Shown here piece after piece: positions 7,621 to 60,269 of a stretch of 64,000 nucleotides of DNA. The notes under the pieces were generated by a model that worked only from the letters and a program-made list of their open reading frames with translations, was not told where the DNA came from and did not search any database. Location: positions 2,951,002-3,015,001 of the forward strand of contig NZ_CP129104.1 in the NCBI RefSeq assembly GCF_030406605.1, given 5' to 3'. The number at the start of each line of letters is the position of its first letter. Within the stretch, counting starts at the first letter, position 1. The position numbers were made by a program, and so were the translations under genes. This DNA is from Curtobacterium sp. 458. Lineage in GTDB: Bacteria; Actinomycetota; Actinomycetes; Actinomycetales; Microbacteriaceae.

Positions 7621-7663
7621 GGACTGGAGGCCCGTGGCGGCGCCCGCCACGGGCCTCCGGTCC
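7621..7663. terminator. Palindrome family A, copy 1
   Basis: Twenty-base arms (7621-7640 and 7644-7663) pair with one mismatch around a 3-nt loop. The arm begins GGACTGGAGGCCCGTGGCGG. It lies between the VOC gene and the aldo/keto reductase gene. It is probably a transcription terminator, but has no T-run, and belongs to a family of seven such elements in this window. Confidence 0.7.
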
Positions 7664-7702
7664 GCCCCGCGAGGGGTCGCGACGCGGTCCGCCCCGCCTC
7701 CG

Positions 7703-7715
7703 TAGGCTCGGCACC
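7703..7715 (+). promoter_or_regulatory. Leaderless promoter -10 box
   Basis: TAGGCT at 7703-7708 is separated by 7 nt from the ATG at 7716. No Shine-Dalgarno sequence precedes the ATG, so transcription probably starts at or next to the start codon. Confidence 0.55.
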
Positions 7716-8759
7716 ATGTCCTACACCGCGGCGGACGACCGCTACGACTCCATGCCCTACCGCCGGACCGGCCGCTCCGGCCTCGACCTGCCCCTGCTCT
7801 CGCTCGGGTACTGGCACAACTTCGGCGACGACAAGCCGTTCGAGACGCAGCGGGCGATCAGCCGCCGCGCGTTCGACCTCGGCATCACGCACCACGACCT
7901 CGCGAACAACTACGGCCCGCCCTACGGCGCCGCCGAGGTCAACTTCGGCCGGCTCATGCGCGAGGACTTCCGGCCGTACCGCGACGAGATGGTGATCTCG
8001 ACGAAGGCCGGGTGGGACATGTGGCCCGGGCCGTACGGCCAGGGCGGCGGCTCGCGGAAGTACGTGCTCGCCTCCCTCGACCAGTCGCTCCAGCGGATGG
8101 GCCTCGAGTACGTCGACGTCTTCTACTCCCACCGGCTCGACGCCTCGACGCCGCTGGAGGAGACCATGGGTGCGCTGCACACCGCCGTCCAGCAGGGCAA
8201 AGCGCTGTACGTCGGGATCTCGTCGTACGACGCCGAGCGCTCCCGGCAGGCCGCGGCGATCCTCCGCGACCTCGGCACCCCGCTCCTCATCCACCAGCCG
8301 TCGTACTCGATGCTCAACCGGTGGATCGAGGACGAGGGGCTGCTCGACGCGGCCGGCGAGCTCGGCTTCGGCGTGATCGGCTTCACCGCGCTCGCGCAGG
8401 GGCTGCTGACGGGGCGGTACCTCGACGGGGTGCCGGCCGACTCGCGTGCGGCAGCGGGCAAGTCGCTCGACGCCGGGTCCCTCACGCCGGAGGTCGTCGA
8501 GCACCTGCGGGCGCTGAACGACGTCGCGGCGGCGCGCGGCCAGAGCCTGGCGCAGCTCGCGCTCGCGTGGGCGCTCCGCGACGAGCGGGTGACCTCGCTC
8601 GTGATCGGCGCGTCGCGGGTGGAGCAGCTCGAGCAGAACGTCGCGGCGCTCGGCAACCTGACGTTCACGGACGACGAGCTCCGGACGATCGACGAGCACT
8701 CCGTCGGTGTCCTCGACGTGGACCTGTGGTCCGGCGCGCGATCGGGTGCCGTGAGCTGA
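7716..8759 (+). CDS. Aldo/keto reductase, YghZ (glyceraldehyde-3-phosphate reductase) type
   Basis: 347 residues. The protein follows Escherichia coli YghZ closely: YRRTGRSGLDLPLLSLGYWHNFG at the start, then DLANNYGPPYGAAEVNFGRLMREDF, KAGWDMWPGPYG and VGISSYDAERSRQAA. The AKR tetrad is visible (Asp in HHDLANNYG, Tyr of NNYG, Lys in ISTKAGW, His in FYSHRLD). YghZ reduces L-glyceraldehyde 3-phosphate and methylglyoxal with NADPH; the same is likely here, possibly as aldehyde detoxification. It has its own leaderless promoter. An alternative ATG 36 nt downstream is possible but less likely. Confidence 0.88.
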   Translation: MSYTAADDRYDSMPYRRTGRSGLDLPLLSLGYWHNFGDDKPFETQRAISRRAFDLGITHHDLANNYGPPYGAAEVNFGRLMREDFRPYRDEMVISTKAGWDMWPGPYGQGGGSRKYVLASLDQSLQRMGLEYVDVFYSHRLDASTPLEETMGALHTAVQQGKALYVGISSYDAERSRQAAAILRDLGTPLLIHQPSYSMLNRWIEDEGLLDAAGELGFGVIGFTALAQGLLTGRYLDGVPADSRAAAGKSLDAGSLTPEVVEHLRALNDVAAARGQSLAQLALAWALRDERVTSLVIGASRVEQLEQNVAALGNLTFTDDELRTIDEHSVGVLDVDLWSGARSGAVS

Positions 8760-8791
8760 GGCGCCCGGCGCGGGCGCGGCGGGGCTGCCTG

Positions 8792-8853
8792 CGCACAACC
8801 GAAGTCGTCCCGGACCACGCGCATCCGCGGTTCGGCACGACTTCGGTCGTGCG
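8792..8853. terminator. Palindrome family B, copy 1
   Basis: Seventeen-base arms (8792-8808, 8837-8853) with one mismatch, starting CGCACAACCGAAGTC. It sits between convergent genes (aldo/keto reductase and gap), so it is probably a bidirectional terminator. The copy at 48563 shares the same outer arm. Confidence 0.65.
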
Positions 8854-8868
8854 AGCGTCGGCCGCGGC

Positions 8869-10365
8869 TCACACCGCGAGCGCGACGGGCACGTCGGCAG
8901 CCGACGCCGACGCCGACGCCGCGGACACCGCCGGGAGCGTCAGCGCCCGGTGCCCGCTCATCGTCTCGAGCACCCGCACGACCTGCCGGCTGTACCCGTA
9001 CTCGTTGTCGTACCAGACGTAGACCACGACCTGCCGGCCGCCGTCCGCGATCGTCGCGAGCCCGTCGACGACCCCGGCCTTCCGCGAACCGAGGAAGTCG
9101 CTCGACACGACCTCCGGCGACTCGACGTAGTCGACCTGGCGGCGGAGGGCCGAGCGCAGTGAGACCTCGCGGAGGTGGGCGTTGAGCTCCTCGCGGGTCA
9201 CGCCCCTGCCCAGCGTGAGGGTGAGCACCGCGATCGACACGTCGGGCGTCGGGACGCGGATCGCGCTCCCGGTGAGCTTCCCCGCGAGCGGCGGGTACGC
9301 CTTCGCCACGGCCTTCGCGGCCCCGGTCTTCGTCGGCACCATGTTGAGCGCCGCCGACCGACCACGCCGGGGCCCGGGGTGGTGGTTGTCAGTGAGGTTC
9401 TGGTCGTTCGTGAACGAGTGCACCGTCTCGACGTGGCCGTGCTCGATGCCGTACTCGGTCTCGAGCGCGGCGAGCACCGGCGTGATCGCGTTCGTCGTGC
9501 AGGACGCCGCCGCGACGATCGGCTCGTCCGCGATCATCGCGTCGTTGACCCCGTGCACGATGTTCGGCACGCCGCCGGAGGCCGGGGCGGTCAGCAGGAC
9601 ACGGGACACCCCTGGGGCCGCGAGGTGCGCCGACAGCGACTCCCGGTCGGTCCGGACCCCGGTGCTGTCGACGACGACGGCGTCGTCGATGCCGTACGCG
9701 GCGTAGTCGACGTCGGACGGCGACGCCGCACCGATGAACCGGATGACGGTCCCGTTCGCGGTGATCGTCTGAGCCTCCTGGTCGACGGTGATCGTCCCGT
9801 CGAAGGGCCCGTGCACGGAGTCCCGCCGCAGCAGGCTCGCCCGCTTGACCAGGTCCTCCGGACCCGTGGACCGCAGGACGACCGCTCGGAGGCGGAGTCC
9901 GTACGCGCCTCCCGACCGGGCCAGGAGGATCCGCGCGACGAGCCGGCCGATCCGTCCGAACCCGTGGATGACGACGTCGCGTGGCGGCGCCGCGTACTGA
10001 CCGGTGCCGACCGCTTCGGCGAGGACGTGCCGGAGGTAGTCGTCGAGCTCGAGCGCGTCCTGCCTGCGGAAGCCGGCGTTGCAGTCGGCGACGTCGACCA
10101 CCGACGGACCGAGGTCGAGGGTCGTCAGCGCGTGCAGGACCGGCAGGATCTCGTGCGGGGACAGTTCGACGCCGTCCAGGTGCCGCGCGAACCGGTGCAG
10201 CTTGAGGATCTCGTGCACCGAACGCCCCACGAGCCGGCGACCGTGGATCGTCGTCACGACGTCGTGCCGTCGGTGGAGTCCGTCGACGATCGGGACCATC
10301 GCGGCGGCGACCGACGCCCGGTCGACCCACTCGTCGAGGACCCGGTCGGTCCCCGCGCGGTTCAC
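8869..10365 (-). CDS. Glyceraldehyde-3-phosphate dehydrogenase, long GapB-like form
   Basis: 498 residues, about 160 more than glycolytic GAPDH. An N-terminal helical extension (1-128) precedes the Rossmann motif VVIHGFGRIGRLVARIL (131-147). The catalytic Cys289 is in ASCTTNAI and the partner His is in VHSFTND. A similar long enzyme, GapB of Corynebacterium glutamicum, works in gluconeogenesis with NADP. The gene starts with GTG overlapping the pckG stop as GTGA, so it is the second gene of a pckG-gap operon. This supports a gluconeogenic role. An Ala/Ser-rich tail closes the protein. Confidence 0.88.
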   Translation of the reverse strand: MNRAGTDRVLDEWVDRASVAAAMVPIVDGLHRRHDVVTTIHGRRLVGRSVHEILKLHRFARHLDGVELSPHEILPVLHALTTLDLGPSVVDVADCNAGFRRQDALELDDYLRHVLAEAVGTGQYAAPPRDVVIHGFGRIGRLVARILLARSGGAYGLRLRAVVLRSTGPEDLVKRASLLRRDSVHGPFDGTITVDQEAQTITANGTVIRFIGAASPSDVDYAAYGIDDAVVVDSTGVRTDRESLSAHLAAPGVSRVLLTAPASGGVPNIVHGVNDAMIADEPIVAAASCTTNAITPVLAALETEYGIEHGHVETVHSFTNDQNLTDNHHPGPRRGRSAALNMVPTKTGAAKAVAKAYPPLAGKLTGSAIRVPTPDVSIAVLTLTLGRGVTREELNAHLREVSLRSALRRQVDYVESPEVVSSDFLGSRKAGVVDGLATIADGGRQVVVYVWYDNEYGYSRQVVRVLETMSGHRALTLPAVSAASASASAADVPVALAV

Positions 10366-12365
10366 GCCGCGACCTCGACGCGCGCCGGCGTCGTGCCCCC
10401 GGCCGCTGCGGGTGCTTCTGCCGCCGCCTCGAGCCGAGCCCGCAGTGCCCGGAGCTCCGCGCGCACCGCGGCGGGGACGGTCCCACCGAGCGACTCGAAG
10501 AACGCCTCGGTCCGGTCCGCCTCGTCGAGCCAGCTGGCGGGGTCGACGTCGAACAGGGCCTGGAGGCTCGTCCCCGACACCCCGAGACCGCGCACGTCGA
10601 GCGCGCCCTCCGCGGGGACCGCGCCGAGTGGCGTCGCGCGCGTGGTCGGCGCGTCCGGGTCCGCGACCCGGTCAGCGATCCACGCGAGGACGCGGGCGTT
10701 CTCCCCGAAGCCGGGCCAGAGGAACGCGCCGTCCTCGCCCTTCCGGAACCAGTTGACCTGGAAGACCTTCGGAGCACCCGCGCCGAGCCCTTCGCCGACC
10801 TCGAGCCAGTGCTGCCAGTGCGACCCCATGTCGTAGCCGACGAACGGGAGCATGCCGAAGGGGTCCCGACGGAGTTCGCCGACCGTGCCCTCCTGCGCTG
10901 CCGTGCGTTCGCTCGACACCGTCGCGCCGACGAAGACGCCCTGCGCCCAGCTCTCCGTCTCGACGACGAGCGGCACGTTCGTCGCCCGGCGCCCGCCGAA
11001 GAGGATCGCGTCGACCGGGACACCGTCCTGCTCGTACCAGTCGTCCGCGAGGGTCCGGCACTGCTCGATCGGGCTCGTGAACCGGGCGTTCGGGTGCGCC
11101 GCCGGCGTGCCCTTCGCCGGTGTCCAGTGCTCGCCCCGCCAGTCGATGAGGTGTGCCGGCGGCTCGTCGGTCAGACCCTCCCACCAGACGTCCCCGTCCT
11201 CGGTCAGCGCGACGTTCGTGAAGATCGTCCGCTTCCGCATCGTGTCCATCGCGACGGGGTTCGTCGCCACCGACGTCCCCGGAGCCACGCCGAAGATGCC
11301 GGCCTCGGGATTGATCGCGTACAGCCGTCCGTCCGCGCCCGGCCGGAGCCAGGCGATGTCGTCGCCGATCGTCTCGACGCGCCAGCCCGGAAGCGTGGGC
11401 TGCAGCATCGCGAGGTTCGTCTTGCCGCAGGCGCTCGGGAAGGCCGCGGCGACGTGGAACGCACGGCCGGCCGGGTCGGTGAGCTTGAGCAGGAGCATGT
11501 GCTCGGCGAGCCAGCCCTCGTCGCGGGCGATCGTCGAACCGATCCGGAGCGCGAAGCACTTCTTCGACAGCAGCGCGTTGCCGCCGTAGCCGGAGCCGAA
11601 CGACCAGATCGCCCGCTCCTCCGGGAAGTGCGAGATGTACTTCGTCGGGTTGCTCGGCCACGCGACGTCCGGGCGCCGGGTGCCGTCGGCGTTCCGGAGC
11701 GGGTACCCGACGCTGTGCACGCCCGCGACCCACTGCGTGTCGGGTCCGATGCGCTCGAGCGCGTCGTCGCCCACCCGAGCCATCAGCGCGAGCGAGACGG
11801 CGGCGTAGGCGGAGTCGGTGACCTGCACGCCCACCTGCGAGATCGCGCCGCCGACCGGCCCCATCGAGTACGGGACGACGTACATCGTCCGGCCGCGCAT
11901 GGACTCCGCGAACAGGCCGTTGAGCTCGGCGTGCATCGACCGCGGGTCGCGCCAGTTGTTCGTCGGGCCGGCGTCGGCGGGGTCGCTCGTGCAGATGAAG
12001 GTGCGGTCTTCCATCCGGGCGACGTCGTCCGGGGTGCTCCGGGCCAGGAAGCTGTCCGGCCGGAGTCCCGGGTCGAGGCGGATGAGTGCGCCTTCTTCCA
12101 CCATCCGGTCGGTCAGGCGGGTCCACTCCGCGTCGGAACCGTCGCACCAGACGACCTCGTCCGGTCGGGTCAGCAGCGCCGTGCGCACGACCCAGTCCGC
12201 GAGTGCGCGGTTCGCCAGTCCGTGCCGGTACGCCCCGTCCGGCACCTCGGCGCTGGGGCACGGCCCCACCGGCGGGTGGGTGTGCCGGTGCACGGTCGCA
12301 GTGGGGATCGGGCCGGTCTCGGCGTCGCCGAAGCGGCGGTCACGGGACGGAACGGTCATCGTCAT
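10362..12365 (-). CDS. pckG: Phosphoenolpyruvate carboxykinase (GTP)
   Basis: 667 residues, slightly longer than the roughly 610 usual. It converts oxaloacetate plus GTP to PEP, CO2 and GDP, the first committed step of gluconeogenesis. The P-loop with the reactive cysteine is at 310-317 (PSACGKTN, Cys313). YGGNALLSKKCFALRIGS at about 260-277 is the substrate and metal region of GTP-dependent enzymes. The start at 12365 has GAGGAG 7 nt upstream; an ATG 45 nt earlier has none. The C-terminus carries an Ala-rich extension. It is divergent from the RamB-like regulator across a 123-bp gap. Confidence 0.96.
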   Translation of the reverse strand: MTMTVPSRDRRFGDAETGPIPTATVHRHTHPPVGPCPSAEVPDGAYRHGLANRALADWVVRTALLTRPDEVVWCDGSDAEWTRLTDRMVEEGALIRLDPGLRPDSFLARSTPDDVARMEDRTFICTSDPADAGPTNNWRDPRSMHAELNGLFAESMRGRTMYVVPYSMGPVGGAISQVGVQVTDSAYAAVSLALMARVGDDALERIGPDTQWVAGVHSVGYPLRNADGTRRPDVAWPSNPTKYISHFPEERAIWSFGSGYGGNALLSKKCFALRIGSTIARDEGWLAEHMLLLKLTDPAGRAFHVAAAFPSACGKTNLAMLQPTLPGWRVETIGDDIAWLRPGADGRLYAINPEAGIFGVAPGTSVATNPVAMDTMRKRTIFTNVALTEDGDVWWEGLTDEPPAHLIDWRGEHWTPAKGTPAAHPNARFTSPIEQCRTLADDWYEQDGVPVDAILFGGRRATNVPLVVETESWAQGVFVGATVSSERTAAQEGTVGELRRDPFGMLPFVGYDMGSHWQHWLEVGEGLGAGAPKVFQVNWFRKGEDGAFLWPGFGENARVLAWIADRVADPDAPTTRATPLGAVPAEGALDVRGLGVSGTSLQALFDVDPASWLDEADRTEAFFESLGGTVPAAVRAELRALRARLEAAAEAPAAAGGTTPARVEVAA

Positions 12366-12428
12366 GGTGGTCTCCTCGTCGAGCCCTACGGTGGTCGTGG
12401 TCCCCAGCATGCGGGGCTGTCCGCGCGC

Positions 12429-12434
12429 TAGGCT
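12429..12434 (+). promoter_or_regulatory. Probable -10 box for the RamB-like gene
   Basis: TAGGCT, with the start codon 55 nt further on behind its own ribosome site (GAGGAAGAG), suggesting a transcript with a leader of about 48 nt. Confidence 0.4.
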
Positions 12435-12448
12435 CTCGGCCAGACGGA

Positions 12449-12466
12449 GAAGAACAGCAGTTCTTC
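12449..12466. promoter_or_regulatory. Inverted repeat operator between pckG and the RamB-like gene
   Basis: GAAGAAC-AGCA-GTTCTTC has perfect 7-bp arms. It lies just downstream of the TAGGCT box and 84 bp upstream of the pckG start, where one bound protein could affect both genes. Autoregulation by the RamB-like protein with coupled control of pckG is the inference. Confidence 0.5.
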
Positions 12467-12488
12467 ACACTCGAGGAAGAGTGACGAC

Positions 12489-13925
12489 ATGTCCCACGAC
12501 GACGGCCCCCAGCGACTGCTCGGGCAGTGGATCCGCCACGTGCGCACGACCCGCGGGATGACCCTCGACGTCCTCGGTCGCGCCACCGACCTCGCGCCGA
12601 GCCGCCTCTCGATGATCGAGAACGGGCTCCGCGAGCCGAAGGTCTCCGTGCTCACGAAGATCGCGGCGGCGCTGGACGTCCCCGTGTCCACACTCACCTC
12701 GTCGACCCCGCCGACCGAGCGTGCCCGACTCGAGCTCGAGCTCGCCGCCCACCAGGACGGCCCGCTCGCCGCTCGTCTCGACCTGCCGCGCATCGACGTC
12801 CGGAGGAGCCTGCCCGACGACGTCCTCGCGAGCGTCGTCGCCCTGCACGAGGCATTGGAACGACGGGTCCGTGAATCCGCAGTCACCCAGGCCGCCGGCC
12901 GGGAGGCGATGATCGCACTGCGGCTGCAGGGCCAGTCGTCCGACAACTACTACGAGGACATCGAGGACCAGGCCGCCGACCTGCTCGGGACGGTCGAGCG
13001 TCCGCCGGGGCCGCTCATGCACCACACCGTCGCGGCGCTGGCGTCGAAGCTCGGGTACCGCCTCGTGCACGCCGACGACCTGCCCGCCTCCTCGCGCACG
13101 ATCACCGACCGCGAGCACGGCGTGATCTACCTGCCGCCGGCCGCGACACCCGGTGGTCGGGGTCTGCGCAGTCTGGCGCTGCAGGCACTCGCGCACGTGG
13201 TCCTCGGGCACCGGCCGCCCACCGACTACGCCGAGTTCCTGCGGCAGCGCATCGAGATCACGGCGTTCGCGGCGGCCTGCCTCGTCCCGCGGGACGCCGC
13301 CGTGCCGTTCCTGCAGCAGGCGAAGTCCCGGCGTGACATCGCCCTCGAGGACTTCCGCGACGCGTTCGGGGTCACGCACGAGACGGCGGCGCACCGGTTC
13401 ACCACGCTCGCGACGCGCTTCCTCGACCTCCCCGTGCACTTCGTCCGTGTGCGCCGGTCTGGTGCGATCGTGAAGGGCTACGAGAACGACGGCATCACGT
13501 TCCCGACCGACACAGACGGCGGGATCGTCGGGCAGGTCGTCTGTGCGAAGTGGGCGTCCCGGACGGCGTTCGAGGACCGGAACCGCTCACGCGAGCACTA
13601 CCAGTACACGGACACGCCGAACGGCACGTACTGGTGCAGCGTGCAGACGGGCACCGACGACGACGAGTTCTCGATCACGCTCGGGACGCCGTTCGCGCAC
13701 GCGCAGTGGTTCCGGGGACGCGACACCACCGTCCGGCGGCAGTCGAACTGCCCCGACCCGTCGTGCTGCCGGCGCCCGCCCGCGCCCCTCGAGGCGAAGT
13801 GGAAGGACGTCGCTTGGCCGAGCGCCAAGCTGGGCGAGCACGTCCTCGCCCCCCTGCCCACCGGCCGGTTCCCCGGGGTGGACGACGGCGAGGTCTACCG
13901 CTTCCTCGAGGCGCACGCCGAGTAG
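12489..13925 (+). CDS. ramB: XRE-family regulator with ImmA/IrrE-like domain, RamB (ScfR) type
   Basis: 478 residues. An N-terminal helix-turn-helix occupies about 9-64 (MTLDVLGRATDLAPSRLSMIENGLREP). The middle contains a DUF955 region in which the usual HExxH is degenerate (ALAHVVLGH), so peptidase activity is unlikely. The C-terminal DUF2083-like part has a cysteine cluster, NCPDPSCCRR. RamB proteins control acetate, glyoxylate and gluconeogenic genes in Corynebacterium and Mycobacterium. Placement opposite pckG-gap fits that job. The symbol rests on family resemblance and context; the exact regulon is unknown. Confidence 0.75.
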   Translation: MSHDDGPQRLLGQWIRHVRTTRGMTLDVLGRATDLAPSRLSMIENGLREPKVSVLTKIAAALDVPVSTLTSSTPPTERARLELELAAHQDGPLAARLDLPRIDVRRSLPDDVLASVVALHEALERRVRESAVTQAAGREAMIALRLQGQSSDNYYEDIEDQAADLLGTVERPPGPLMHHTVAALASKLGYRLVHADDLPASSRTITDREHGVIYLPPAATPGGRGLRSLALQALAHVVLGHRPPTDYAEFLRQRIEITAFAAACLVPRDAAVPFLQQAKSRRDIALEDFRDAFGVTHETAAHRFTTLATRFLDLPVHFVRVRRSGAIVKGYENDGITFPTDTDGGIVGQVVCAKWASRTAFEDRNRSREHYQYTDTPNGTYWCSVQTGTDDDEFSITLGTPFAHAQWFRGRDTTVRRQSNCPDPSCCRRPPAPLEAKWKDVAWPSAKLGEHVLAPLPTGRFPGVDDGEVYRFLEAHAE

Positions 13926-13965
13926 CGCCGCTCGCGGCACTGCCGGCGCCCGCGCGTCCGGCAGA

Positions 13966-14028
13966 CGAACCACGAAACCGACACCGAACCGGGTCCTCGC
14001 CCCGGTTCGATGTCGGTTTCGTGGTTCG
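13966..14028. terminator. Long inverted repeat between convergent regulator and flagellar operon
   Basis: Twenty-eight-base arms (13966-13993 and 14001-14028) pair with one mismatch around a 7-nt loop. The arm begins CGAACCACGAAACCGAC. It lies 40 bp after the RamB-like gene and 24 bp past the end of flgE, which converge, so it probably terminates both. There is no T-run. Confidence 0.7.
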
Positions 14029-14051
14029 ACGCAAGCACGCGCTCGCAGGAC

Positions 14052-15227
14052 CTACCGCTTCAGGTTCGTCAGCTCCTGCAGCACCTCGTCCGAGGTCGTG
14101 ATGATGCGCGCGTTCGCCTGGAACCCGCGCTGCGCCACGATGAGGTTCGTGAACTCCTGCGACAGGTCGACGTTCGACATCTCGAGCGTCCCCGCCGCGA
14201 GCGAGCCGACGCCCGCCGAACCGGGTCCGCCGACCGAGGCCTGGCCGGAGTTCGCCGTCGCGCGGTACCCCGAGGCGCCGGTCTTCTCGAGGCCGGCCGG
14301 GTTCGCGAACGTCGCGAGGGCGATCCGACCGAGGGCGAGCGAGGCACCGTTGGAGAAGGTGCCCGTGACGGTGCCGTCCTTCGCGATCGAGTAGCCCTGC
14401 AGCGACCCGGCCTCGTGGCCGTTCTGCGACGAGATGGTCGCGGTGTTGAGCGTCGCGAACCCGGTGAGGCCGGACATGTCGACCGCGATCCCGCCGACGG
14501 TGAGCGCACCGCCGGTGGCGACCTTGCCGTCGGCACCGAACGTGATCGTCGAGGTGGCGTTCGCGCCCTGCCCGTTCGTCGCGGTGACGTCCCAGCCGGT
14601 CGCCGTGCGCTGGTACGCGATCGACATCGTGTGCTTGGCGCCGGACGCGTCGTACACGGTGGCGTCGCGGGTCACGGTCTCGCCGACGGCGGTGTCGGAG
14701 GGCAGGTTGCCGGTGAGGGCCGCGGTGGTCGTGCGGACCGCGGGCGCGGCGGCCTCGAGCGGGAGCGTGATGTCGCCGAGCTGACCGTTGTCGTTGACCA
14801 CGCCGTTCACGGCCGGGTACCCCTGGACGATCTTGCCGTCCGAGGAGACCAGGCGGCCGTCGGCGTCGAAGTCGAACGCGCCGGCGCGGGTGTACACGGT
14901 GTCGTTGCCGAGGCGCGTGACGAAGAAGCCGTCGCCCGAGATCATGAGGTCGGTGGCCTTGCCGGTGGCCTGCGCCGAACCCTGCGCGAAGTTCGTGGAG
15001 ACACCGGCGACCTGCACGCCGAGGCCGATCTGCGCGGGGTTCGTGCCGCCGATGCCGGTCTGCGGCCCACCGGCGCCCTGGGTCATCTGGGACAGGGTGT
15101 CCTGGAAGACGGTCGACGACGACTTGAAGCCGACGGTGTTGACGTTGGCGATGTTGTTGCCCGTGACGTCGAGCATCTCCTGGTGGGAGCGGAGGCCGGA
15201 GATCCCGGAGTAGAGCGAGCGGAGCAT
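14052..15227 (-). CDS. flgE: Flagellar hook protein
   Basis: 391 residues. The N-terminal rod/hook signature MLRSLYSGISGLRSHQEMLDVTGNNIANVNTVGFK and the C-terminal helix SQEFTNLIVAQRGFQANARIITTSDEVLQEL mark the FlgE/F/G family. The middle FlgE domain and the position after flgD identify the hook subunit. It is polymerised under the FlgD cap and secreted by the flagellar export system. It is the last gene of the flgB operon. The ribosome site is GAAAGGA. No flbD, motA or motB follows, unlike many Gram-positive clusters. Confidence 0.93.
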   Translation of the reverse strand: MLRSLYSGISGLRSHQEMLDVTGNNIANVNTVGFKSSSTVFQDTLSQMTQGAGGPQTGIGGTNPAQIGLGVQVAGVSTNFAQGSAQATGKATDLMISGDGFFVTRLGNDTVYTRAGAFDFDADGRLVSSDGKIVQGYPAVNGVVNDNGQLGDITLPLEAAAPAVRTTTAALTGNLPSDTAVGETVTRDATVYDASGAKHTMSIAYQRTATGWDVTATNGQGANATSTITFGADGKVATGGALTVGGIAVDMSGLTGFATLNTATISSQNGHEAGSLQGYSIAKDGTVTGTFSNGASLALGRIALATFANPAGLEKTGASGYRATANSGQASVGGPGSAGVGSLAAGTLEMSNVDLSQEFTNLIVAQRGFQANARIITTSDEVLQELTNLKR

Positions 15228-15245
15228 GGTGCGTCCTTTCGTGGA

Positions 15246-15292
15246 GGTACCGCGGTACCGAAGAAGAAGAAGAAGAAGGAGGAGGAGGGCGG
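15246..15292. repeat. Palindrome and AAG triplet tract between flgD and flgE
   Basis: A perfect 14-bp palindrome, GGTACCGCGGTACC (15246-15259), is followed by six AAG triplets (15261-15278) and GGA triplets. On the coding strand this is a pyrimidine tract (CTT repeats) in the flgD-flgE spacer, ahead of the flgE ribosome site. Triplet tracts can change length by slippage, but here a change would not shift a reading frame. Confidence 0.6.
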
Positions 15293-15727
15293 TCAGGAGG
15301 TGGTCTTGATCCCGGAGATCACGTCGAGATCGACCTCCTTCCCGTCCACGGTCACGGTCGGCACGCTCTCCGCGTACGACACGGCGGTCGCCGTCCCCGT
15401 GATCGACTTGCCGGACGTCGCGTCGGTGTAGCTGACCTGCTTCCCGACGAGGTTCGCGGCGGCGATCCGCATCTGCAGCGAGAAGTTCTCGTTCGCCGTC
15501 GTGGTCTGGTTCGTGATCTGCTCCATCATCGCGAGCTGCGTCTGCTGGCTGATCATCTGGTTGGTGTCCATCGGCGAGGACGGGTCCTGGTTCCGGAGCT
15601 GCGTGACGAGCAGCTTCATGAACACCTCGGAGTCCATCGTCTGCGACCGCGAGGACGACTGGTTCGCGGCGAGGGCCGCGGCCTGGGTGGCCTGGTCGAC
15701 CGACCCGGTGATGCCGTCGAGGGGCAT
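15293..15727 (-). CDS. flgD: Flagellar hook capping protein
   Basis: 144 residues, a short form. The conserved core reads FMKLLVTQLRNQDPSSPMDTNQMISQQTQLAMMEQ (about 36-70). It caps the growing hook so that FlgE can assemble and is later replaced by FlgK. The C-terminal half contains a single beta-rich region (LVGKQVSYTD...). AAAGGA precedes the ATG. It lies 24 bp after fliK in the same operon. Confidence 0.92.
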   Translation of the reverse strand: MPLDGITGSVDQATQAAALAANQSSSRSQTMDSEVFMKLLVTQLRNQDPSSPMDTNQMISQQTQLAMMEQITNQTTTANENFSLQMRIAAANLVGKQVSYTDATSGKSITGTATAVSYAESVPTVTVDGKEVDLDVISGIKTTS

Positions 15728-15751
15728 GGTGTGGTCCTTTCGTGCCGTCGC

Positions 15752-17341
15752 TCAGGCGAGGACGTCGAGGCCCGCGGTGCGGACGGTTGTCGTGGTCGGG
15801 GTGCGGTGTGCGGCGGAGGCGGGTCGTGCCTCCCGGTCGTCGCGGACCGCCTGCGGACCGGGTGCAGGGCGCTCGTCGCGCCGCGGGGCGGAGTCCGGGT
15901 GGTTCTGCGAGGACAGGTCGAGCGTCGTCGACAGCGCGGTCCCCGCCGCGTCACGGCGGAGGTCCGGCAGGACCTGGCGGACGGCCTCGCGTCCGGCGTC
16001 GGACGGCGCGTAGAGCTCGACGTGCATGCTGTGCGCGGTCACGTGGGCCCGCACGGTGACCGGTCCGAGGGTGTCCGGCGTCACCTGCACGGTGACGACG
16101 TGCTCCCCCGGTCCGGCGTGGGCGAGTGAGAACACCGGTCGGGCGAGCTGCTGGGTGAACGTCGCGGGCGCGGCGTTCGCGGTCGCGGCGCCGGACGGCG
16201 TCGCCGCCGCCGTGGGAGCGGTCGTCGACGGGGTCGGGAACGGTGCGGGTGCGGCTCCGGCGCGTGCGCCGTCGACGGCCTGGAGGCCCGGCTCGACCCC
16301 GGCACCCGGCCGCCGGTCCGTCCCGGCGCCGGTCCCGTCGCCGCCCGTGCGGGTGCCCGCGGCCGCCGTCGGCACGACAGGGCTCGCGGTCCCCGTGCCG
16401 GTGGTGGCTGCACTCGCCTCGGGCTGGGCCGTGGCGGGCTGCGTCGCCCTCGTGCCCGAGGGCAGTGCCGCGGCGGCCGTCGCACTGGGGTCCGTCGTGA
16501 TCGCCGAAGCGTTGACCGGCTGCGCGGGTGCGGCCGTCGTCGGGGACGGTGCCGTGACCGTGACCGTGGCCGTAGTGGACGCGATTGCGCCCGAGGTGGC
16601 GGTCGGCTCCTGGGTCGTCGTGACCGTCGGGCTGCCGGCGAGTGCCGTCGAGGCGTGCACCGTCGGGGCAGACGCCGTCGCGAGGACGCTCTTCCGGTGG
16701 GCTCCCGCGGGCGTGCCGGACGCGGGGACCCCGGTCGTGGTGGCGGATGGGACGGCGTCGGCGGGGGCGGCCCCGGGCGGGGTCGGAGCGGGGACGGCTG
16801 CCGGGGTGGCCAGGGCAGTGGCCCGTGCGGCGGTCGGGGAAGTGGTCGCGGCGGTCGTCGCGGCGGTCGGGGCGGCTGTCGCCACGGCACCGGCTGCGGT
16901 GCCAGCGGCTGACGCACCGGCCGTCCCGGTCACGCCGACGGGGTCCGTCCCGCTCGTGGTCGTGCCGGCGCTCGCGGGGACTGCCCCGCCGAGGAGGGCG
17001 ACCATCGGCACCGGCGTCGCCGCGGGCGTCGCGCCGGCGGTGCCGTCCGCGCTGCTGCCGGTGACGGCGCTCGACGTCGTGCCGCCCTGCGCGTCCGGCC
17101 GCTCCGTGCCCGGTGCGGCAGCGTCGGACGACGTCGTGTCGGCGCCGGTCGCCCGGGGAGCGGTGTCTCCCCCGGTGCCGGCCGCAGCACGGTCCTGTCG
17201 CGGACCGCGGGGCTGTGGGCCGGTGGGCGCCGCACCGGCGAGCACGTCGCCGAACGCTGCTCCCCCGTCGCCGGGACGCGCCGACGACGGCCGTCCGGTG
17301 GCGGCTGCCGTCGGCGGCGTGGTGGCGATCATCGTGCTCAT
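15752..17341 (-). CDS. fliK: Flagellar hook-length control protein
   Basis: 529 residues. Most of it (about 1-420) is low-complexity Ala/Thr/Pro/Gly sequence, as expected for the extended ruler part. The C-terminal Flg_hook domain (about 425-500) contains GEHVVTVQVTPDTLGPVTVRAHV and ELYAPSDAGREAVRQVLPDLR. It measures the hook and switches export to late substrates. Its ATG overlaps the upstream NlpC/P60 stop as ATGA. The reading was set by that overlap and by the domain; longer ORFs in this frame run into other genes. Confidence 0.88.
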   Translation of the reverse strand: MSTMIATTPPTAAATGRPSSARPGDGGAAFGDVLAGAAPTGPQPRGPRQDRAAAGTGGDTAPRATGADTTSSDAAAPGTERPDAQGGTTSSAVTGSSADGTAGATPAATPVPMVALLGGAVPASAGTTTSGTDPVGVTGTAGASAAGTAAGAVATAAPTAATTAATTSPTAARATALATPAAVPAPTPPGAAPADAVPSATTTGVPASGTPAGAHRKSVLATASAPTVHASTALAGSPTVTTTQEPTATSGAIASTTATVTVTAPSPTTAAPAQPVNASAITTDPSATAAAALPSGTRATQPATAQPEASAATTGTGTASPVVPTAAAGTRTGGDGTGAGTDRRPGAGVEPGLQAVDGARAGAAPAPFPTPSTTAPTAAATPSGAATANAAPATFTQQLARPVFSLAHAGPGEHVVTVQVTPDTLGPVTVRAHVTAHSMHVELYAPSDAGREAVRQVLPDLRRDAAGTALSTTLDLSSQNHPDSAPRRDERPAPGPQAVRDDREARPASAAHRTPTTTTVRTAGLDVLA

Positions 17342-34605: not shown

Positions 34606-34613
34606 GCGACCCC

Positions 34614-45145: not shown

Positions 45146-45173
45146 TCGATCGATGAGGATCTGGAGGCCCAGA

Positions 45174-46394: not shown

Positions 46395-46396
46395 TC

Positions 46397-48535: not shown

Positions 48536-48562
48536 CGCCCGGCACTGACGCCGGCGCCGCCC

Positions 48563-48624: not shown

Positions 48625-48682
48625 AACGCGATCGGCACCACGCGCACCGCGCCGTCGCGCGCCTCGCCTCCGCCGACCGGCG

Positions 48683-48694
48683 TAGCGTGCAGCC
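48683..48694 (+). promoter_or_regulatory. Leaderless promoter -10 box
   Basis: TAGCGT at 48683-48688, 6 nt before the ATG at 48695; no Shine-Dalgarno. Confidence 0.5.
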
Positions 48695-49051: not shown

Positions 49052-49095
49052 CGCAGACCCACTGGCAACCCCATCGAGACGTGCTCGATGTTGCC

Positions 49096-50420: not shown

Positions 50421-50674
50421 GCCTCCCCGCGGAGATCGTCGAGGGAGACGCGAGTCCCGTCGTCTTCAGCTTTCGCATCGCGGTAGGCGCGGAGGTCTGC
50501 CGCGTCTTCGAGCTGCTCGAGGAGCTCGAGGTCATCGAGGCCGATCACGACGCCTGCGACCTTGCCGTTGCGGGTCACTGCGATGCGCTCGTGGCCGAAC
50601 GTGGCCCGCCCCATGACGGCAGCGAGCTCAGCACGGAACTCTCTCGTCGTGAGCGATGCGGAAATGCTGTTCAT
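50417..50674 (-). CDS. Phd/YefM-family antitoxin
   Basis: 85 residues from ATG at 50674. SISASLTTREFRAELAAVMGRATFGHERIAVTRNGKVAGVVIGLDDLELLEQL is the Phd/YefM DNA-binding part; the acidic tail (DDGTRVSLDDLRGEA) should wrap the toxin. A GTG two codons earlier is possible but would lie within the operator. The promoter is leaderless. Confidence 0.88.
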   Translation of the reverse strand: MNSISASLTTREFRAELAAVMGRATFGHERIAVTRNGKVAGVVIGLDDLELLEQLEDAADLRAYRDAKAEDDGTRVSLDDLRGEA

Positions 50675-50701
50675 GTGCACACTGTAACCGATGTGTACAC
50701 A
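50674..50701 (-). promoter_or_regulatory. Operator and leaderless promoter of the toxin-antitoxin operon
   Basis: Two palindromes, TGTGCACA (50674-50681) and TGTGTACACA (50692-50701), lie 19 bp apart centre to centre. Between them, on the minus strand, is TACAGT (50686-50681), 6 nt before the ATG. The second contains TGTACA, the core reported for YefM-YoeB operators. Bound antitoxin would cover the -10 and the start codon. Confidence 0.65.
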
Positions 50702-50705
50702 CGTA

Positions 50706-52646
50706 TCAACGCTCGGCGGAGCTCGTCTGCCGCGGCCGCGCGGGCTTCGCCTGCGGCACCTTCGTCCCGACGACCTGGTCGATCACGTCGCGGGCGATCG
50801 TCTGCGCCGTCAGCCCGACGTCCTGCAGGATCTGCGACCGCGACGCGTGATCGATGAACTCGTCCGGCAACCCGAGCTCGTTCACGCCCGTGTCCACCCC
50901 GGCCGCGCGGAGGTCCTGCCGCAACCGCGTCCCGACACCCCCGACGCGCACGCCGTCCTCGATCGTGATGACGAGCCGGTGGTCGCGCGAGAGGTCGATG
51001 AGCGACGCCGGGATCGGCACCACCCACCGCGGGTCGACGACGGTCGTCCCGATGCCCTGCGCCTCGAGCAGCGCCGCCGCCTCGAGCGCGACCGGGACCA
51101 TCGACCCGACCGCGACGAACAGGACGTCGCGTTCCTGGTCTGACGAAGGCGACCGCAGCACGTCGACGCCGTCGGACAGCCGACGGAGCGCCGGGATGTC
51201 CGGCCCGACCTGCCCCTTGGACCACCGCAGCACGGTGGGGGCGTCGTCCACGGCGACGGCCTCGCGGAACTCCTCACGGAGGGTCGCGGCGTCACGGGGT
51301 GCGGCGATCCGGATGCCCGGCACGACCTGCAGGAGCGCGAGGTCCCACATGCCGTGGTGCGACGGCCCGTCCGGCCCGGTGATCCCCGCCCGGTCGAGCA
51401 CGAACGTGACGCCGGCCCGGTGCAGGGCGACGTCCATGAGCACCTGGTCGAACGCCCGGTTGAGGAACGTCGCGTACAGGGCGACCACGGGGTGCAGCCC
51501 GCCGTACGCGAGGCCGGCGGCGGTGGTCACCGCGTGCTGCTCGGCGATCCCGACGTCGATCACCCGGTCGGGGTGCTGCTCCTGGAACAGGTGGAGCCCG
51601 GTCGGCCGGAGCATGGCTGCGGTGATCGCGACGATGCGCTCGTCCGCACCACCGACCTCTGCGAGCGACGACGCGAACACCGACGTCCACGACGGACCCG
51701 ACGAGACGTCGAGCGACTCCCCCGTCTCCGGGTCGATGTGCCCGACCGCGTGGAACTGGTCGGCCTGGTCGCGGAGCGCCGGCTCGAACCCGTGCCCCTT
51801 CTCCGTGATGGCGTGCACGATCGTGGGTGCCCCGTACGCCTTCGCCTGACGGAGCGCCGCCTCCATAGCCCGCTGGTCGTGCCCGTTCACCGGGCCGATG
51901 TACTTGATGTCGAGGTTCGAGTAGAGGGCCTCGTTGTTCGTGAACCGCGACAGGAACCCGTGCAGCCCGCCGCGCATCCCGCGGTAGAACGCACGACCGG
52001 GGGCGCCGAAGCGCGAGGCGACGGCCTGCGACTTCTCGAACAGCGCCCGGTACTCGCGGCGGGTCCGGACCGAGCTGAGGAACCGTGCCATGCCGCCGAT
52101 CGTCGGCGCGTACGACCGCCCGTTGTCGTTCACGACGATGACGAGCCGACGGTCGTTGCTGTCGGAGATGTTGTTGAGCGCCTCCCAGGTCATCCCGCCC
52201 GTGAGCGCCCCGTCACCCACCACGGCGACGACGGTCCGGTCGGCCTGTCCGGTGCGCTGGAACGCGCGCGAGATGCCGTCCGCCCACGACAGCGACGACG
52301 ACGCGTGCGACGACTCGACGATGTCGTGTTCGGACTCGCTGCGCTGCGGATACCCGGCGATGCCGCCCCGTTCCCGGAGCCGCGAGAAGTCCTGCCGCCC
52401 CGTCACGAGCTTGTGCACGTAGGACTGGTGGCCCGTGTCGAAGACGATCGGGTCGTGCGGGGAGTCGAACACGCGATGCATCGCGAGGGTCAGCTCCACG
52501 ACCCCGAGGTTCGGTCCGAGGTGCCCACCGGTCTTCGCGACCTCCGCTACCAGGAACCGCCGGATCTCCGCGGCCAGGTCGGTCATCTGCGCGTCGGACA
52601 GACGCTTGAGGTCGCGCGGCGACGTGATGCTCGGAAGCAGGTCCAC
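50706..52646 (-). CDS. dxs: 1-deoxy-D-xylulose-5-phosphate synthase
   Basis: 646 residues. It carries the His of TGHQSYVHKL, the thiamine diphosphate site GDGALTGGMTWEALNNI and the transketolase pyrimidine domain (IAEQHAVTTAAGLA). It makes DXP from pyruvate and glyceraldehyde 3-phosphate, the entry to the non-mevalonate isoprenoid pathway. GTG at 52646 has AAAGGAGC upstream; the ATG 81 nt earlier has none. The toxin-antitoxin islet begins 32 bp after its stop. Confidence 0.96.
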   Translation of the reverse strand: MDLLPSITSPRDLKRLSDAQMTDLAAEIRRFLVAEVAKTGGHLGPNLGVVELTLAMHRVFDSPHDPIVFDTGHQSYVHKLVTGRQDFSRLRERGGIAGYPQRSESEHDIVESSHASSSLSWADGISRAFQRTGQADRTVVAVVGDGALTGGMTWEALNNISDSNDRRLVIVVNDNGRSYAPTIGGMARFLSSVRTRREYRALFEKSQAVASRFGAPGRAFYRGMRGGLHGFLSRFTNNEALYSNLDIKYIGPVNGHDQRAMEAALRQAKAYGAPTIVHAITEKGHGFEPALRDQADQFHAVGHIDPETGESLDVSSGPSWTSVFASSLAEVGGADERIVAITAAMLRPTGLHLFQEQHPDRVIDVGIAEQHAVTTAAGLAYGGLHPVVALYATFLNRAFDQVLMDVALHRAGVTFVLDRAGITGPDGPSHHGMWDLALLQVVPGIRIAAPRDAATLREEFREAVAVDDAPTVLRWSKGQVGPDIPALRRLSDGVDVLRSPSSDQERDVLFVAVGSMVPVALEAAALLEAQGIGTTVVDPRWVVPIPASLIDLSRDHRLVITIEDGVRVGGVGTRLRQDLRAAGVDTGVNELGLPDEFIDHASRSQILQDVGLTAQTIARDVIDQVVGTKVPQAKPARPRQTSSAER

Positions 52647-52696
52647 GGGGCGCTCCTTTCGTGGGGCAGGTCCCCACACTATCCACGCAACCGGGC

Positions 52697-52744
52697 GACG
52701 GACTGGAGGCGCGGTGCCAGCTGGCACCGCGCCTCCAGTCCGTC
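52697..52744. terminator. Palindrome family A, copy 5 (perfect 48 bp)
   Basis: Twenty-four-base arms meet without a loop, every base paired (52697-52720, 52721-52744). It lies between acnA and dxs, 35 bp after the acnA stop. Right flank GTCAGGTGG as in copy 4. Confidence 0.75.
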
Positions 52745-52778
52745 AGGTGGTCGCGTCAGCGACCGGTACGGGCGCTGC

Positions 52779-55610
<2,832 letters not shown>

Positions 55611-58320: not shown

Positions 58321-58571
58321 CCCGCGATCTGACGGACGGGAGGCTCGTGGCGGGCCCGCCACGGGCCTCCCGTCCGTCTGCTCGTCGCGCCGGGCGCGGC
58401 GCGCACGCGCTGGTCGCACGCCGCAGGCCGCCAGCCGCCAGCCGCCAGCCGCACGAGACTCGGCGTGGCGGACGACGCTCGTGCGCACGAGCACGAGACT
58501 CGTCCGCCTGCACGAGACTCGGCATCGGCGCCACGAGACTCGGCAGCCGCGCCGCGAGGCCGGACACGCAG
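58321..58571. repeat. Dense intergenic repeats after DUF3093
   Basis: After palindrome copy 6 come three exact GCCGCCA units (58427-58447) and a 14-bp palindrome CTCGTGCGCACGAG (58478-58491). Four copies of CACGAGACTCG, three extending to CACGAGACTCGGC, start at 58452, 58492, 58511 and 58532. No gene is seen. Confidence 0.65.
58331..58378. terminator. Palindrome family A, copy 6
   Basis: Twenty-four-base arms, no loop, one mismatch; arm starts GACGGACGGGAGGCTCGTGG. It lies 10 bp after DUF3093. Confidence 0.7.
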
Positions 58572-58603
58572 GAGACCCCGCCACCGGAGGGTGACGGGGT
58601 CTC
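58572..58603 (-). terminator. Terminator hairpin after the DUF4193 gene
   Basis: Fourteen-base stem (GAGACCCCG core) with one mismatch and a GGAG loop, 13 bp beyond the stop. Confidence 0.7.
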
Positions 58604-58616
58604 GAGGATCGCGTGC

Positions 58617-58916
58617 TTACAGTGCGGCGCACTCCGCGCACACCGGGCCGAGCTTCGACTCGTGGTCGAGCTGCGAGCGGTGCTTCACGAGGAAGCACTC
58701 GACGCAGGTGAACTCGTCGACCTGGGGCGGGAGGACGACGACGTCGAGGTCGACGTCGGAGAGGTCCTGACCGGCGAGCTCGAACGAGCCCGGGTTGTCG
58801 GAATCATCGTCGACGACGCCCGACATCTTGTCGGGGACGCGCTCCTTCAGAGCCTCGATCGACTCCGAGTCCGAGGAGTCGTCGGTCTTCCGGGGGGCGT
58901 CGTAATCGGTGGCCAT
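58617..58916 (-). CDS. DUF4193 protein, small zinc-ribbon-like
   Basis: 99 residues. The acidic first half (DDSSDSESIEAL...DDDSDNPG) is followed by two Cys pairs, CVEC and CAEC, at about 74-77 and 94-97, probably holding zinc. Length and order match DUF4193, found next to sepH in actinobacteria. Function is unknown. The start at 58916 matches the family; longer readings do not. Confidence 0.88.
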   Translation of the reverse strand: MATDYDAPRKTDDSSDSESIEALKERVPDKMSGVVDDDSDNPGSFELAGQDLSDVDLDVVVLPPQVDEFTCVECFLVKHRSQLDHESKLGPVCAECAAL

Positions 58917-59180
58917 GCCCATCCATTTCTCGTATCGAGAGGTCGTCGCCGGTGATCGGCGGCGACAGTTTGCACCACGACCCGCCGGAGTGCAAACCGA
59001 ACGTCCCGGCGGTTCGTTCTGGCGCTGCAACCCGCCGTCGACCCCCGCCATTCCCGCACTGTCCGGAGCCGTGGACCGCACCTCGCGGCACGCCGTGCGC
59101 CTCCCCGGGATCGGGGTCCGCGCGCTGCATACTCACGGGGTACGACGCACGACCGTACGCACGCATCGGAAGGCGGAACC

Positions 59181-60200
59181 ATGCAGGACCTGAGAGTCAT
59201 CGGAGTGGAGTCGGGCGCACTCCTGCTCGCGACGGACGGCGGCACGGAGTACCGGCTGCCCGTCACCTCGTCCCTCCCGGGCCAGGTCCGGCAGGCGAAC
59301 CCCGAGGGCGGACCGCAGAAGCGCGTGTCACCGAAGGACGTGCAGGCGCGCATCCGCGGTGGTGCCGACGCCGCCGACGTCGCGGCCGCGCTCGACGTCG
59401 ACGTCGACTACGTCCGCCGCTTCGAGGGCCCGGTGCTCGCCGAGCGCGCGTTCATCCTCGACGCCGCCCGCCGCGTGTCCGTGACCCCGGTCGACGACGA
59501 GGCGCCCGACACCTTCGGTGAGGCGATCACCGCCAAGCTCGAGGCCGGCGAGGCGTCGAGCGTGCAGTGGGCGTCGTGGAAGCACGTCGACACCGGCTGG
59601 CAGGTCCGCGTCCGCTACGCCGTCGACGAGGTCGAGCACGACGCACAGTGGCGCTTCGACCCGAAGACCTCGACGCTCGTGCCCGACAACGGCGACGCGC
59701 ACAGGCTCTCGCACACCGACGACGAGGGCATCGCGCCCCGCCTCCGCGCGGTCGAGTTCGAGCACGAGGACGCCGACGGCACCCGCTTCGACTCCGGCGC
59801 CTTCCGGGTCGAGTCCGCCGACGAGGAGCTCACGAACCCCGAGGTCGCCGAGCGTGCCCCGCTCCGCGCCCCGCTCCCGCGCATCGGCGCGGCCGCTCCC
59901 GAGGAGCGCGCTCCCGGCAACGAGACCGCCGACCTGCTCGAGGCCCTCCGTCGCCGCCGGGGTGAGCGTGAGGCCGCGTCGTTCACGGAGCACCAGGAGG
60001 AGCCCCGCCGGACCTCGATCAGCGTCGTCGACGTGCCGCTGCACGGCTTCGAGGACTCGTCGGACACCGCCCCGCAGCCCGATGCACGTCCGTCGTCGGC
60101 CCCGGAACCCGAGGCGCGCGACCGGAAGAAGCGGAGCCGCCGTTCGATGCCGAGCTGGGACGAGATCGTCTTCGGCACGCGCCCGGAGGACCCCGCCTGA
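59181..60200 (+). CDS. sepH: Septation protein SepH
   Basis: 339 residues. The N-terminal DUF3071 domain (MQDLRVIGVESGALLLATDGGTEYRLPV) holds a helix-turn-helix-like part with RIRGGADAADVAAALDVDVDYVRRFEGPVLAERAFI. The C-terminal part is disordered and charged. In Streptomyces and Mycobacterium SepH binds FtsZ and promotes Z-ring assembly. GGAAGG lies about 9 nt upstream. Confidence 0.92.
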   Translation: MQDLRVIGVESGALLLATDGGTEYRLPVTSSLPGQVRQANPEGGPQKRVSPKDVQARIRGGADAADVAAALDVDVDYVRRFEGPVLAERAFILDAARRVSVTPVDDEAPDTFGEAITAKLEAGEASSVQWASWKHVDTGWQVRVRYAVDEVEHDAQWRFDPKTSTLVPDNGDAHRLSHTDDEGIAPRLRAVEFEHEDADGTRFDSGAFRVESADEELTNPEVAERAPLRAPLPRIGAAAPEERAPGNETADLLEALRRRRGEREAASFTEHQEEPRRTSISVVDVPLHGFEDSSDTAPQPDARPSSAPEPEARDRKKRSRRSMPSWDEIVFGTRPEDPA

Positions 60201-60205
60201 TCCCC

Positions 60206-60269
60206 GCCCTGGAGGCACGGCCCGGCCCCGTCACGCACCGCGCGTGACGGGGCCGGTCCCGTCCAGGGC
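60206..60269. terminator. Palindrome family A, copy 7 (variant)
   Basis: Outer arms GCCCTGGA (60206-60213, 60262-60269) and perfect inner 15-bp arms (60222-60236, 60242-60256). It lies between convergent sepH and the phosphodiesterase gene. Confidence 0.65.

Follow-up and report, generated by a model that had tools for sequence, protein, structure and literature searches.

Palindromes at gene 3′ ends in Curtobacterium and their possible role in shaping transcript ends

What do large palindromes do at the 3′ ends of genes in Curtobacterium sp. 458? The stretch of 64,000 nucleotides analysed here (the window) contains seven large inverted repeats, all confirmed in the sequence where the first-pass annotation had placed them. 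We propose that the family to which six of them belong, some 185 dispersed, GC-rich, mostly loopless palindromes, probably shapes transcript 3′ ends on either strand, as a bidirectional terminator without a U-tract ("I-shaped") or as a hairpin that protects the 3′ end.

Anatomy and number of the palindromes

The repeats are given below, with a strand where one was assigned. Scores refer to a covariance model whose 51 input copies include four from the window.

7618 to 7666: family copy with a CGTGGCG core, in a tandem gap, 24 nt past the gene ending at 7593; model match 54.1 bits.
36772 to 36832: family copy with a longer central part, in a convergent gap, 75 nt past an aldo/keto reductase gene (neighbour named from Pfam); 46.9 bits.
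39303 to 39350: family copy with a mixed core, in a tandem gap, 11 nt past an AFG1-like ATPase gene (minus strand); 62.3 bits.
41901 to 41948: family copy with a CGGTGCC core, between convergent genes whose stops lie 11 and 12 nt away; 55.3 bits.
52697 to 52744: perfect 48-bp palindrome with a CGGTGCC core, 34 nt past the aconitase gene (minus strand) and 50 nt before the dxs start; 70.5 bits.
52683 to 52758, minus strand: the 52697 copy together with the outer arms TGACGCGACC...GGTTGCGTGG, a single long hairpin of -67.6 kcal/mol (from the fold and the outer-arm consensus).
58331 to 58378: 48-bp palindrome with one mismatch, in a convergent gap, 10 nt past the gene ending at 58320; 71.1 bits.
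60206 to 60270: chimeric inverted repeat between convergent genes, with part of one arm in common with the family; excluded from membership.

The seven had been described as sharing a common core. Six do form one family, which the covariance model detects, while the repeat at 60206, whose left arm is only partly family-like and whose right arm is different, is missed by the model; the core as originally quoted, GGACTGGAGGCnCGTGGCG, is not common to the copies. The model also matches weakly inside genes at 16274 and 9881. The family arm reads GG(A/C)C(G/T)GGAGGCnCG, and its inner part is mainly of one of two types, CGTGGCG or CGGTGCC. As described earlier, the copy at 52697–52744 is a perfect loopless palindrome (24 of 24 pairs) and that at 58331–58378 has a single mismatch (23 of 24 pairs). 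The right flank noted for some copies, GTCAGGTGG, is present in two of the seven (41904 and 52697), and belongs to the outer arm GTC-n4-GGTCGCGTC, which is wider but weaker. These same two copies have orthologous copies in other Curtobacterium genomes.

Genome-wide, the core is in strong excess over control, in line with the first-pass expectation. Palindromes with the inner paired stem GGAGGCnCGnnGC number 185 (reversed control 0), the longer arm occurs 191 and 190 times per strand (reversed control 4 and 1) and the full palindrome 108 times (control 0). Within the window, the short arm pattern with one mismatch allowed is not enriched (53 occurrences, with 50.6 expected in shuffles). All 150 strand-hits scored with the covariance model on its own genome matched, so this figure is a floor of at least 150 and not a count. 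An Rfam 15 search of the window returned no match above the gathering score. A phage origin was considered and rejected, as no phage record matches.

Placement and pairing at gene ends

Within an 864-kb sample, 56 of 57 strict copies are intergenic. A stop codon lies within 45 nt of 49 of these 56 (mean 15.1 and maximum 27 in 2000 random runs), confirming the 3′-end bias reported for the window. Convergent gaps hold 22 of the 56 (random mean 11.2, maximum 22) and divergent gaps a single copy (random mean 15.0, minimum 5). The window itself agrees with its earlier description: by our own gene calls four of the seven repeats lie between convergent genes (36774, 41903, 58331 and 60206), the remaining three follow the upstream gene of a tandem pair, and none is in a divergent, promoter-only gap. 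Two plasmid copies likewise lie close behind a gene, 12 and 11 nt past its 3′ end. Family copies and other large palindromes avoid co-occupying convergent gaps; a second large inverted repeat is found in 2 of the 22 such gaps with a family copy, versus 40 of the 73 without (p = 1.5e-4).

The paired structure is under selection, as judged from compensatory changes in the alignments. Changes on both sides of a pair number 71 at the aconitase end (32.8 in shuffles), 51 at the hydrolase end (14.8) and 97 among the 51 copies of the genome itself (43.7), in each case above all 500 shuffles. The first-pass annotation had suggested both selected pairing and a terminator role; 3′-end placement together with selected pairing fits terminators or 3′-end hairpins.

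Computed folds of the copies range from -49 to -68 kcal/mol. The position-wise composition of 53 copies reveals no T-run after the stem on average. In the 12 nt spanning the better end of the stem, 4–5 T occur in 20 of 57 family copies; for other large inverted repeats the figure is 27 of 104. A consensus scan for canonical (L-shaped) terminators across 34000–53500 gave six sites versus 3.9 by chance, none of them on a family copy. The copies instead have two features of I-shaped terminators, a stable hairpin soon past the stop codon and no T-run after the stem. Rho is present in the genome. Counting against the terminator reading are the lack of an average T-run, given that U-less termination is disputed, a near-invariant GGAGGC, and the many gene ends without a family copy.

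We favour a model in which transcription of the element from either side would yield a long hairpin, in most cases no more than 45 nt past the stop codon. Because such a hairpin would form from either direction, it could act as a bidirectional terminator, ending the transcripts of genes that converge on it or follow one another. Alternatively, it may provide the stable stem to which Rho-terminated transcripts are trimmed back.

Possible exchange of cores at fixed gene ends

The strict form is present in 65 of 66 Curtobacterium genomes, and the inner stem is repeated in one other genus. C. ammoniigenes (G163) has 5 matches to the paired pattern; in 12 arm-matching stretches from it, no inverted repeat was reported at the arm position; several of the arms fall inside genes, and two resemble degenerate palindromes by eye. 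Across one region of about 20 kb, orthologous gaps were compared. A family copy persists after the aconitase gene in 33 of 39 genomes and after the hydrolase gene in 36 of 43, and is less steady at the AFG1 end (11 of 33) and the aldo/keto reductase end (9 of 20). It is found at neither the fadB end nor the dxs end (0 of 39 each). At the fadB end, palindromes unrelated to the family are present in 33 of 39 genomes, and types of unrelated sequence replace each other there across species; ends within the fadB operon lack a palindrome in 43 of 43, 40 of 42 and 42 of 45 cases.

At a fixed gene end, core type carries no phylogenetic signal. In some close relatives the inner 20 bp have changed while the place, outer arms and flanks are kept; one sister pair shows differences at 11 of the 20 core bases but at only 2 of the 56 bases around them. 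From core change amid conserved surroundings we infer that copies exchange their inner 20 bp, their place unchanged. The earlier proposal that the elements move as units thus holds at most in part, since the inner 20 bp changes in an otherwise fixed setting and unrelated families interchange at the same end. Gene-conversion-like exchange through the GGACnGGAGGC arms, with no RAYT transposase involved, would be a second step that accounts for the common sequence of the copies. Concerted evolution between two loci was tried and rejected: core identity was 0.708 within the same genome and 0.664 with other genomes, a comparison made without a significance test, and an independent-pairs test, with too few pairs to reach significance, was not significant.

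A broader version of this idea, which we regard as tentative, treats gene-end palindromes as interchangeable cassettes that keep their place under selection for transcript ending. A transposase-free copy-and-replace process, such as breakage of an extruded palindrome followed by repair from another copy via the GGACnGGAGGC arms, would swap the inner 20 bp among dispersed copies and could even install an unrelated family at a given gene end. If so, these terminators would evolve as a population within the genome.

Alternative readings and known systems

REP/BIME-like or MITE-like mobile palindromes, which would insert chiefly behind genes because insertion is least harmful there and would affect transcript ends as a by-product, are an unlikely explanation. 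They would account for the many near-identical dispersed copies, the short tandem arrays (L081, L097 and L083), the presence of copies on two plasmids and a core allele with 15–23 copies in 8 genomes and 0–6 in the other 58. However, the copies stay in place at orthologous ends while undergoing compensatory change. In the gaps inspected by eye, neither an insertion boundary nor a target duplication was clearly visible. The first-pass annotation had advised looking for a RAYT-type transposase; PF01797 (Y1/RAYT) is found in 0 of 66 genomes, with 5 of 14 control genomes matching, which argues against a RAYT-driven REP even though dispersed multicopy extragenic palindromes fit one.

Less probable still is a DNA-level site between genes for a sequence- or structure-specific protein (a nucleoid protein, gyrase or a cruciform binder), with RNA folding secondary. 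The GGAGGC/GCCTCC pairs are nearly invariant, the A-T pair included, at the aconitase end, the hydrolase end and among the 51 own copies, which pairing alone does not account for; length is exactly 42 bp in 66 of 113 loose matches, and the symmetry is loopless. Such a site is at odds with the near absence from divergent gaps, the proximity to stop codons and the substitution of unrelated-sequence palindromes at the same gene end. DNA-uptake words (DUS/USS-like), often in inverted pairs that double as terminators, as PMC2267715 describes for uptake-word organisms, are very improbable and were rejected, because the arm rarely stands alone. In the 864-kb sample a partner lies no more than 80 nt from 80 of the 98 exact arms, and the remaining 18 include several recognisable halves or composites.

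Reading the family as a two-way transcript end invites comparison with three known systems. In Neisseria and Haemophilus, inverted pairs of a repeated uptake word form hairpins at gene ends; the Curtobacterium family is likewise an inverted word pair at gene ends, but its word is mostly paired and not alone. Like REP, BIME and REPIN elements, the copies are dispersed extragenic palindromes after genes, some in arrays; unlike them, they have a much longer, mostly loopless stem at fixed orthologous places, in genomes where no Y1/RAYT protein was found. We found no description of this family in the open-licence literature on Curtobacterium and Microbacteriaceae terminators and repeats, judged mostly by title.

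The closest likeness is to the I-shaped terminators of GC-rich Actinobacteria. A review (PMC12288462) describes for mycobacteria a stable GC-rich hairpin without poly-U within about 50 bp past the stop codon; by the same source, termination by U-less hairpins is disputed. PMC8269248 reports a class of structured, U-lacking ends in Streptomyces Term-seq. If transcripts end at the palindromes, the genus closes many transcription units with one U-tract-free sequence family, so about 185 natural variants would be available together for addressing the disputed U-less termination in GC-rich Actinobacteria. GC-rich laboratory hosts could also draw on the family for candidate bidirectional terminators. 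The Curtobacterium palindromes share with I-shaped terminators a stable, GC-rich, U-less hairpin soon past the stop, but differ in being about 185 copies of one sequence, loopless and of fixed length, and in having cores that vary from one close relative to another at a given gene end. If cores are indeed exchanged at fixed sites, this would be a case of terminators that evolve jointly with no known mobile-element enzyme involved.

A family of palindromes at gene ends

All seven inverted repeats that the first-pass annotation had claimed for the window are present on inspection of the sequence, and the palindrome feature is real and stronger than was visible to that first reading. Its view of them as one family holds for six, which match a single covariance model (built from 51 copies, four of them from the window); the inverted repeat at 60206 is a chimera that shares just a portion of one arm with the family. 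Across the host genome, a single contig of 3,679,616 bp, the arm GGACnGGAGGCnCG has 191 occurrences on one strand and 190 on the other (4 and 1 in a reversed control), and there are 108 full palindromes and 185 inner paired stems (0 in the control for both). Within the window alone, matches to a short arm pattern, one mismatch allowed, show no excess over chance.

Placement was analysed in 864 kb, comprising 40 spaced 20-kb stretches of the host genome and the window, with the stretch overlapping the window replaced by genome positions 1-20000. Our own codon-usage script, rather than a standard gene finder, called 839 genes (90% coding). Of 113 loose arm pairs in this sample, 66 have a length of exactly 42 bp, mostly with no loop, and 23 lie inside genes. 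A strict filter (no more than two mismatches in the arms, pairing at 12 or more of the outer 14 positions, length at least 28) retained 57 and discarded 56. Only one strict copy is inside a gene. Compared with 2000 runs of random placement in the same gaps, the 56 intergenic copies are distributed as 22 in convergent gaps (random 11.2, maximum 22), 33 in tandem gaps (random 29.9) and one in divergent gaps (random 15.0, minimum 5). A stop codon lies within 45 nt of 49 of them (random mean 15.1, maximum 27), and for 28 of the 33 tandem-gap copies the upstream stop is nearer than the next start. Family palindromes and other large palindromes behave as alternatives to each other, because they rarely share a gap: another large inverted repeat is found in 2 of 22 convergent gaps with the family versus 40 of 73 without (gaps of at least 44 bp; p = 1.5e-4), and in 2 of 33 versus 49 of 214 tandem gaps (p = 0.035).

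Alignment on the palindrome reveals weaker outer arms common to 53 copies, (T)GACGCGACC-n4-GAC-[42 bp]-GTC-n4-GGTCGCGTC. The most frequent distance from stop to arm is 14 nt (9 of 53), a spacing at which the TGA of the outer arm is the stop codon itself. Of 60 gene ends with a copy nearby, 6 have CGCGACC (one mismatch allowed) after the stop, compared with 15 of 746 other ends (p = 0.003), so the motif applies to a minority. Position-wise composition shows no T-run after the stem on average across copies; the better stem end has four to five T in its surrounding 12 nt in 20 of 57 copies, compared with 27 of the 104 other large inverted repeats.

Several other palindromes were observed alongside this family (family A). 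Family B (CGCACAACCGAAGTC..., 62 bp) lies at gene ends at 8792-8853 and 48563-48624 of the window, with several further copies in the sample; its narrow arm pattern occurs in 2 of 198 genomes of the host's family, both Curtobacterium. Family C (GAACCACGAAACCGACACCGAACC..., 63 bp) lies between convergent genes at 13966-14028, with more copies in the sample. A large palindromic repeat has two copies, 85% alike, at 24448-24540 (a tandem gap) and 32343-32420. Three fetched stretches (L086 18640-18750, L087 8278-8375 and L092 about 12700-12850) carry composites joining a family A arm to a different element (CCTCCCTCGCAGGCTCGGTCGGCGCGCCCCGC...), as though the arms of one palindrome could be invaded or replaced by another small palindrome. 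In another stretch (L083 13550-14050), several half copies and CCACGGCGTCAGCCG-like spacers alternate to form an intergenic array.

Orthologous gene ends, pairing and distribution

A scan with the hydrolase (41961-43124) returned 46 loci, of which 44 are Curtobacterium, one a Microbacteriaceae bacterium and one Agromyces by title. Gene ends were compared across 45 loci and the window.

Gene ends with a family copy within 150 nt 3′ of the gene
Aconitase: 33 of 39
Hydrolase: 36 of 43
Gene 41431-41889: 33 of 36
AFG1-like ATPase: 11 of 33
Aldo/keto reductase: 9 of 20
Gene 33571-34470: 7 of 16
Ammonium transporter: 1 of 30

Within the same 150 nt, family copies are absent 3′ of dxs (0 of 39), fadB (0 of 39), thiolase (0 of 42) and two operon genes (0 of 42 and 0 of 45). 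The aconitase-end copy is present even in sp. Leaf261 and is degenerate in C. ammoniigenes. Half arms retained at the AFG1 end in several genomes without a family copy are read as probable decay of former copies. At the aconitase end of five loci (L039, L041, L049, L054 and L056), a CGCAAAACGCAACCTGGGCGGCTCC-like palindrome stands ahead of the family A site; in L041 the examined stretch shows no family copy.

Assigning palindromes loosely, from short words, we found a strong palindrome at the fadB end in 33 of 39 genomes (families B 16, H 6, C 5, D 4, others 2; absent in five, weak in one) and at the dxs end in 27 of 42 (B 12, H 5, D 4, C 3, others 3; absent in 12, weak in three). Gene ends inside the fadB operon are without a palindrome in 43 of 43, 40 of 42 and 42 of 45 cases. 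Because unrelated families occupy the fadB and dxs ends while nearly all operon-internal ends lack palindromes, these data suggest that a large hairpin is favoured at transcription-unit ends, and that its sequence is less important.

Pairing is under selection. Counted against shuffles that do not preserve relatedness, two-sided changes affect 71 cells versus 32.8 at the aconitase end (33 genomes), 51 versus 14.8 at the hydrolase end (31 of 33 genomes, without the composite copies L023 and L039) and 97 versus 43.7 among 51 own-genome copies, with 0 of 500 shuffles as high in each. At the aconitase and hydrolase ends, sliding the partner by one to three columns abolishes the pairing. The GGAGGC/GCCTCC pairs, including the A-U pair, are nearly constant, an invariance that is partly circular as copies were gathered by that motif; the n pair is of several types.

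The strict palindrome occurs in 65 of 66 Curtobacterium genomes, usually in 44-194 copies, with low counts in G238 (10) and G239 (9) and none in C. ammoniigenes (G163). Among 299 genomes of the host's family, the inner stem is found in 7 of 7 Curtobacterium (5-219 copies), in one further genus, g35, where all six genomes carry it (11-20 copies), and as single matches in G048 and G273; 394 genomes of the host's class yielded the own genome and six single matches. The covariance model (E 0.01) matched 12 of 90 genomes: two Curtobacterium strongly, G035 with 39 weak matches and nine others with one or two weak matches. Of eight G035 copies fetched, seven lie between convergent genes. Since these eight keep the inner stem and have different outer arms, the long Curtobacterium form may derive from a shorter, older hairpin.

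A C. citreum plasmid carries one copy, 11 nt after a gene 3′ end. On a Microbacterium sediminis plasmid (NZ_CP038257.1, L121 2501-2550), an SDR oxidoreductase gene is followed at 12 nt by a family A copy, which suggests transfer of the gene and its end between genera. None of the phage records searched carries a copy. The RAYT-type transposase that the first-pass annotation had proposed seeking did not appear, with PF01797 in 0 of 66 genomes.

Apparent exchange of cores

The inner 20 bp are mainly of type X (CGTGGCG) or type Y (CGGTGCC). A species tree built from eight neighbouring proteins over 45 rows joins the window with C. luteum NS184 (L014) as its sister (SH-aLRT 95), which suggests that the host is a Curtobacterium close to C. 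luteum. With mixed-type rows omitted (six at aconitase, two at hydrolase), core type requires 8 changes over 27 rows at the aconitase end (shuffles average 8.7, with 120 of 300 needing no more) and 6 over 30 rows at the hydrolase end (average 7.3, 50 of 300); these tree shuffles reveal no phylogenetic signal in core type at either end.

Among pairs selected for differing core types, the window and L014 differ at the aconitase end at 11 of 20 core, 0 of 22 outer-arm and 2 of 34 flank positions (p = 1.7e-6). Loci L025 and L052 differ at 10 core, one outer-arm and one flank position at the hydrolase end, and L047 and L048 at 11, one and four. Four of the ten compared pairs also differ at 12-21 of 34 flank positions, partly from shifted flanks. 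L025 matches its Y relatives at the left n base and X at the right one; judging by these bases, its arm is an internal mosaic. Eight genomes contain 15-23 copies of the core allele GGTACCAGCTGGTACC; the other 58 contain 0-6. Two-locus core similarity is nominally slightly higher in the same genome (0.708) than between genomes (0.664).

From these sequence comparisons we infer that cores have probably been exchanged between copies; the core differences could alternatively have come about through recombination between strains. Our guess is that break repair at extruded palindromes drives the exchange between copies. Such apparent core exchange at fixed sites is the surprising part of the family.

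Proposed role at 3′ ends

The family element is most likely a bidirectional 3′-end hairpin, which would either terminate by itself or mark the trimming stop of Rho-terminated transcripts. Rho is present in the host. For structured, U-lacking ends, both possibilities are raised in a Streptomyces Term-seq study (PMC8269248). Inverted repeats after stop codons in E. coli mostly belong to intrinsic terminators (PMC6060812), and hairpins lacking a U-tract, no more than 50 bp from stop codons, are described for mycobacteria in a review (PMC12288462). The Curtobacterium gene-end hairpins, with their shared sequence, are a genus-level family and would be a variant of such U-less terminators.
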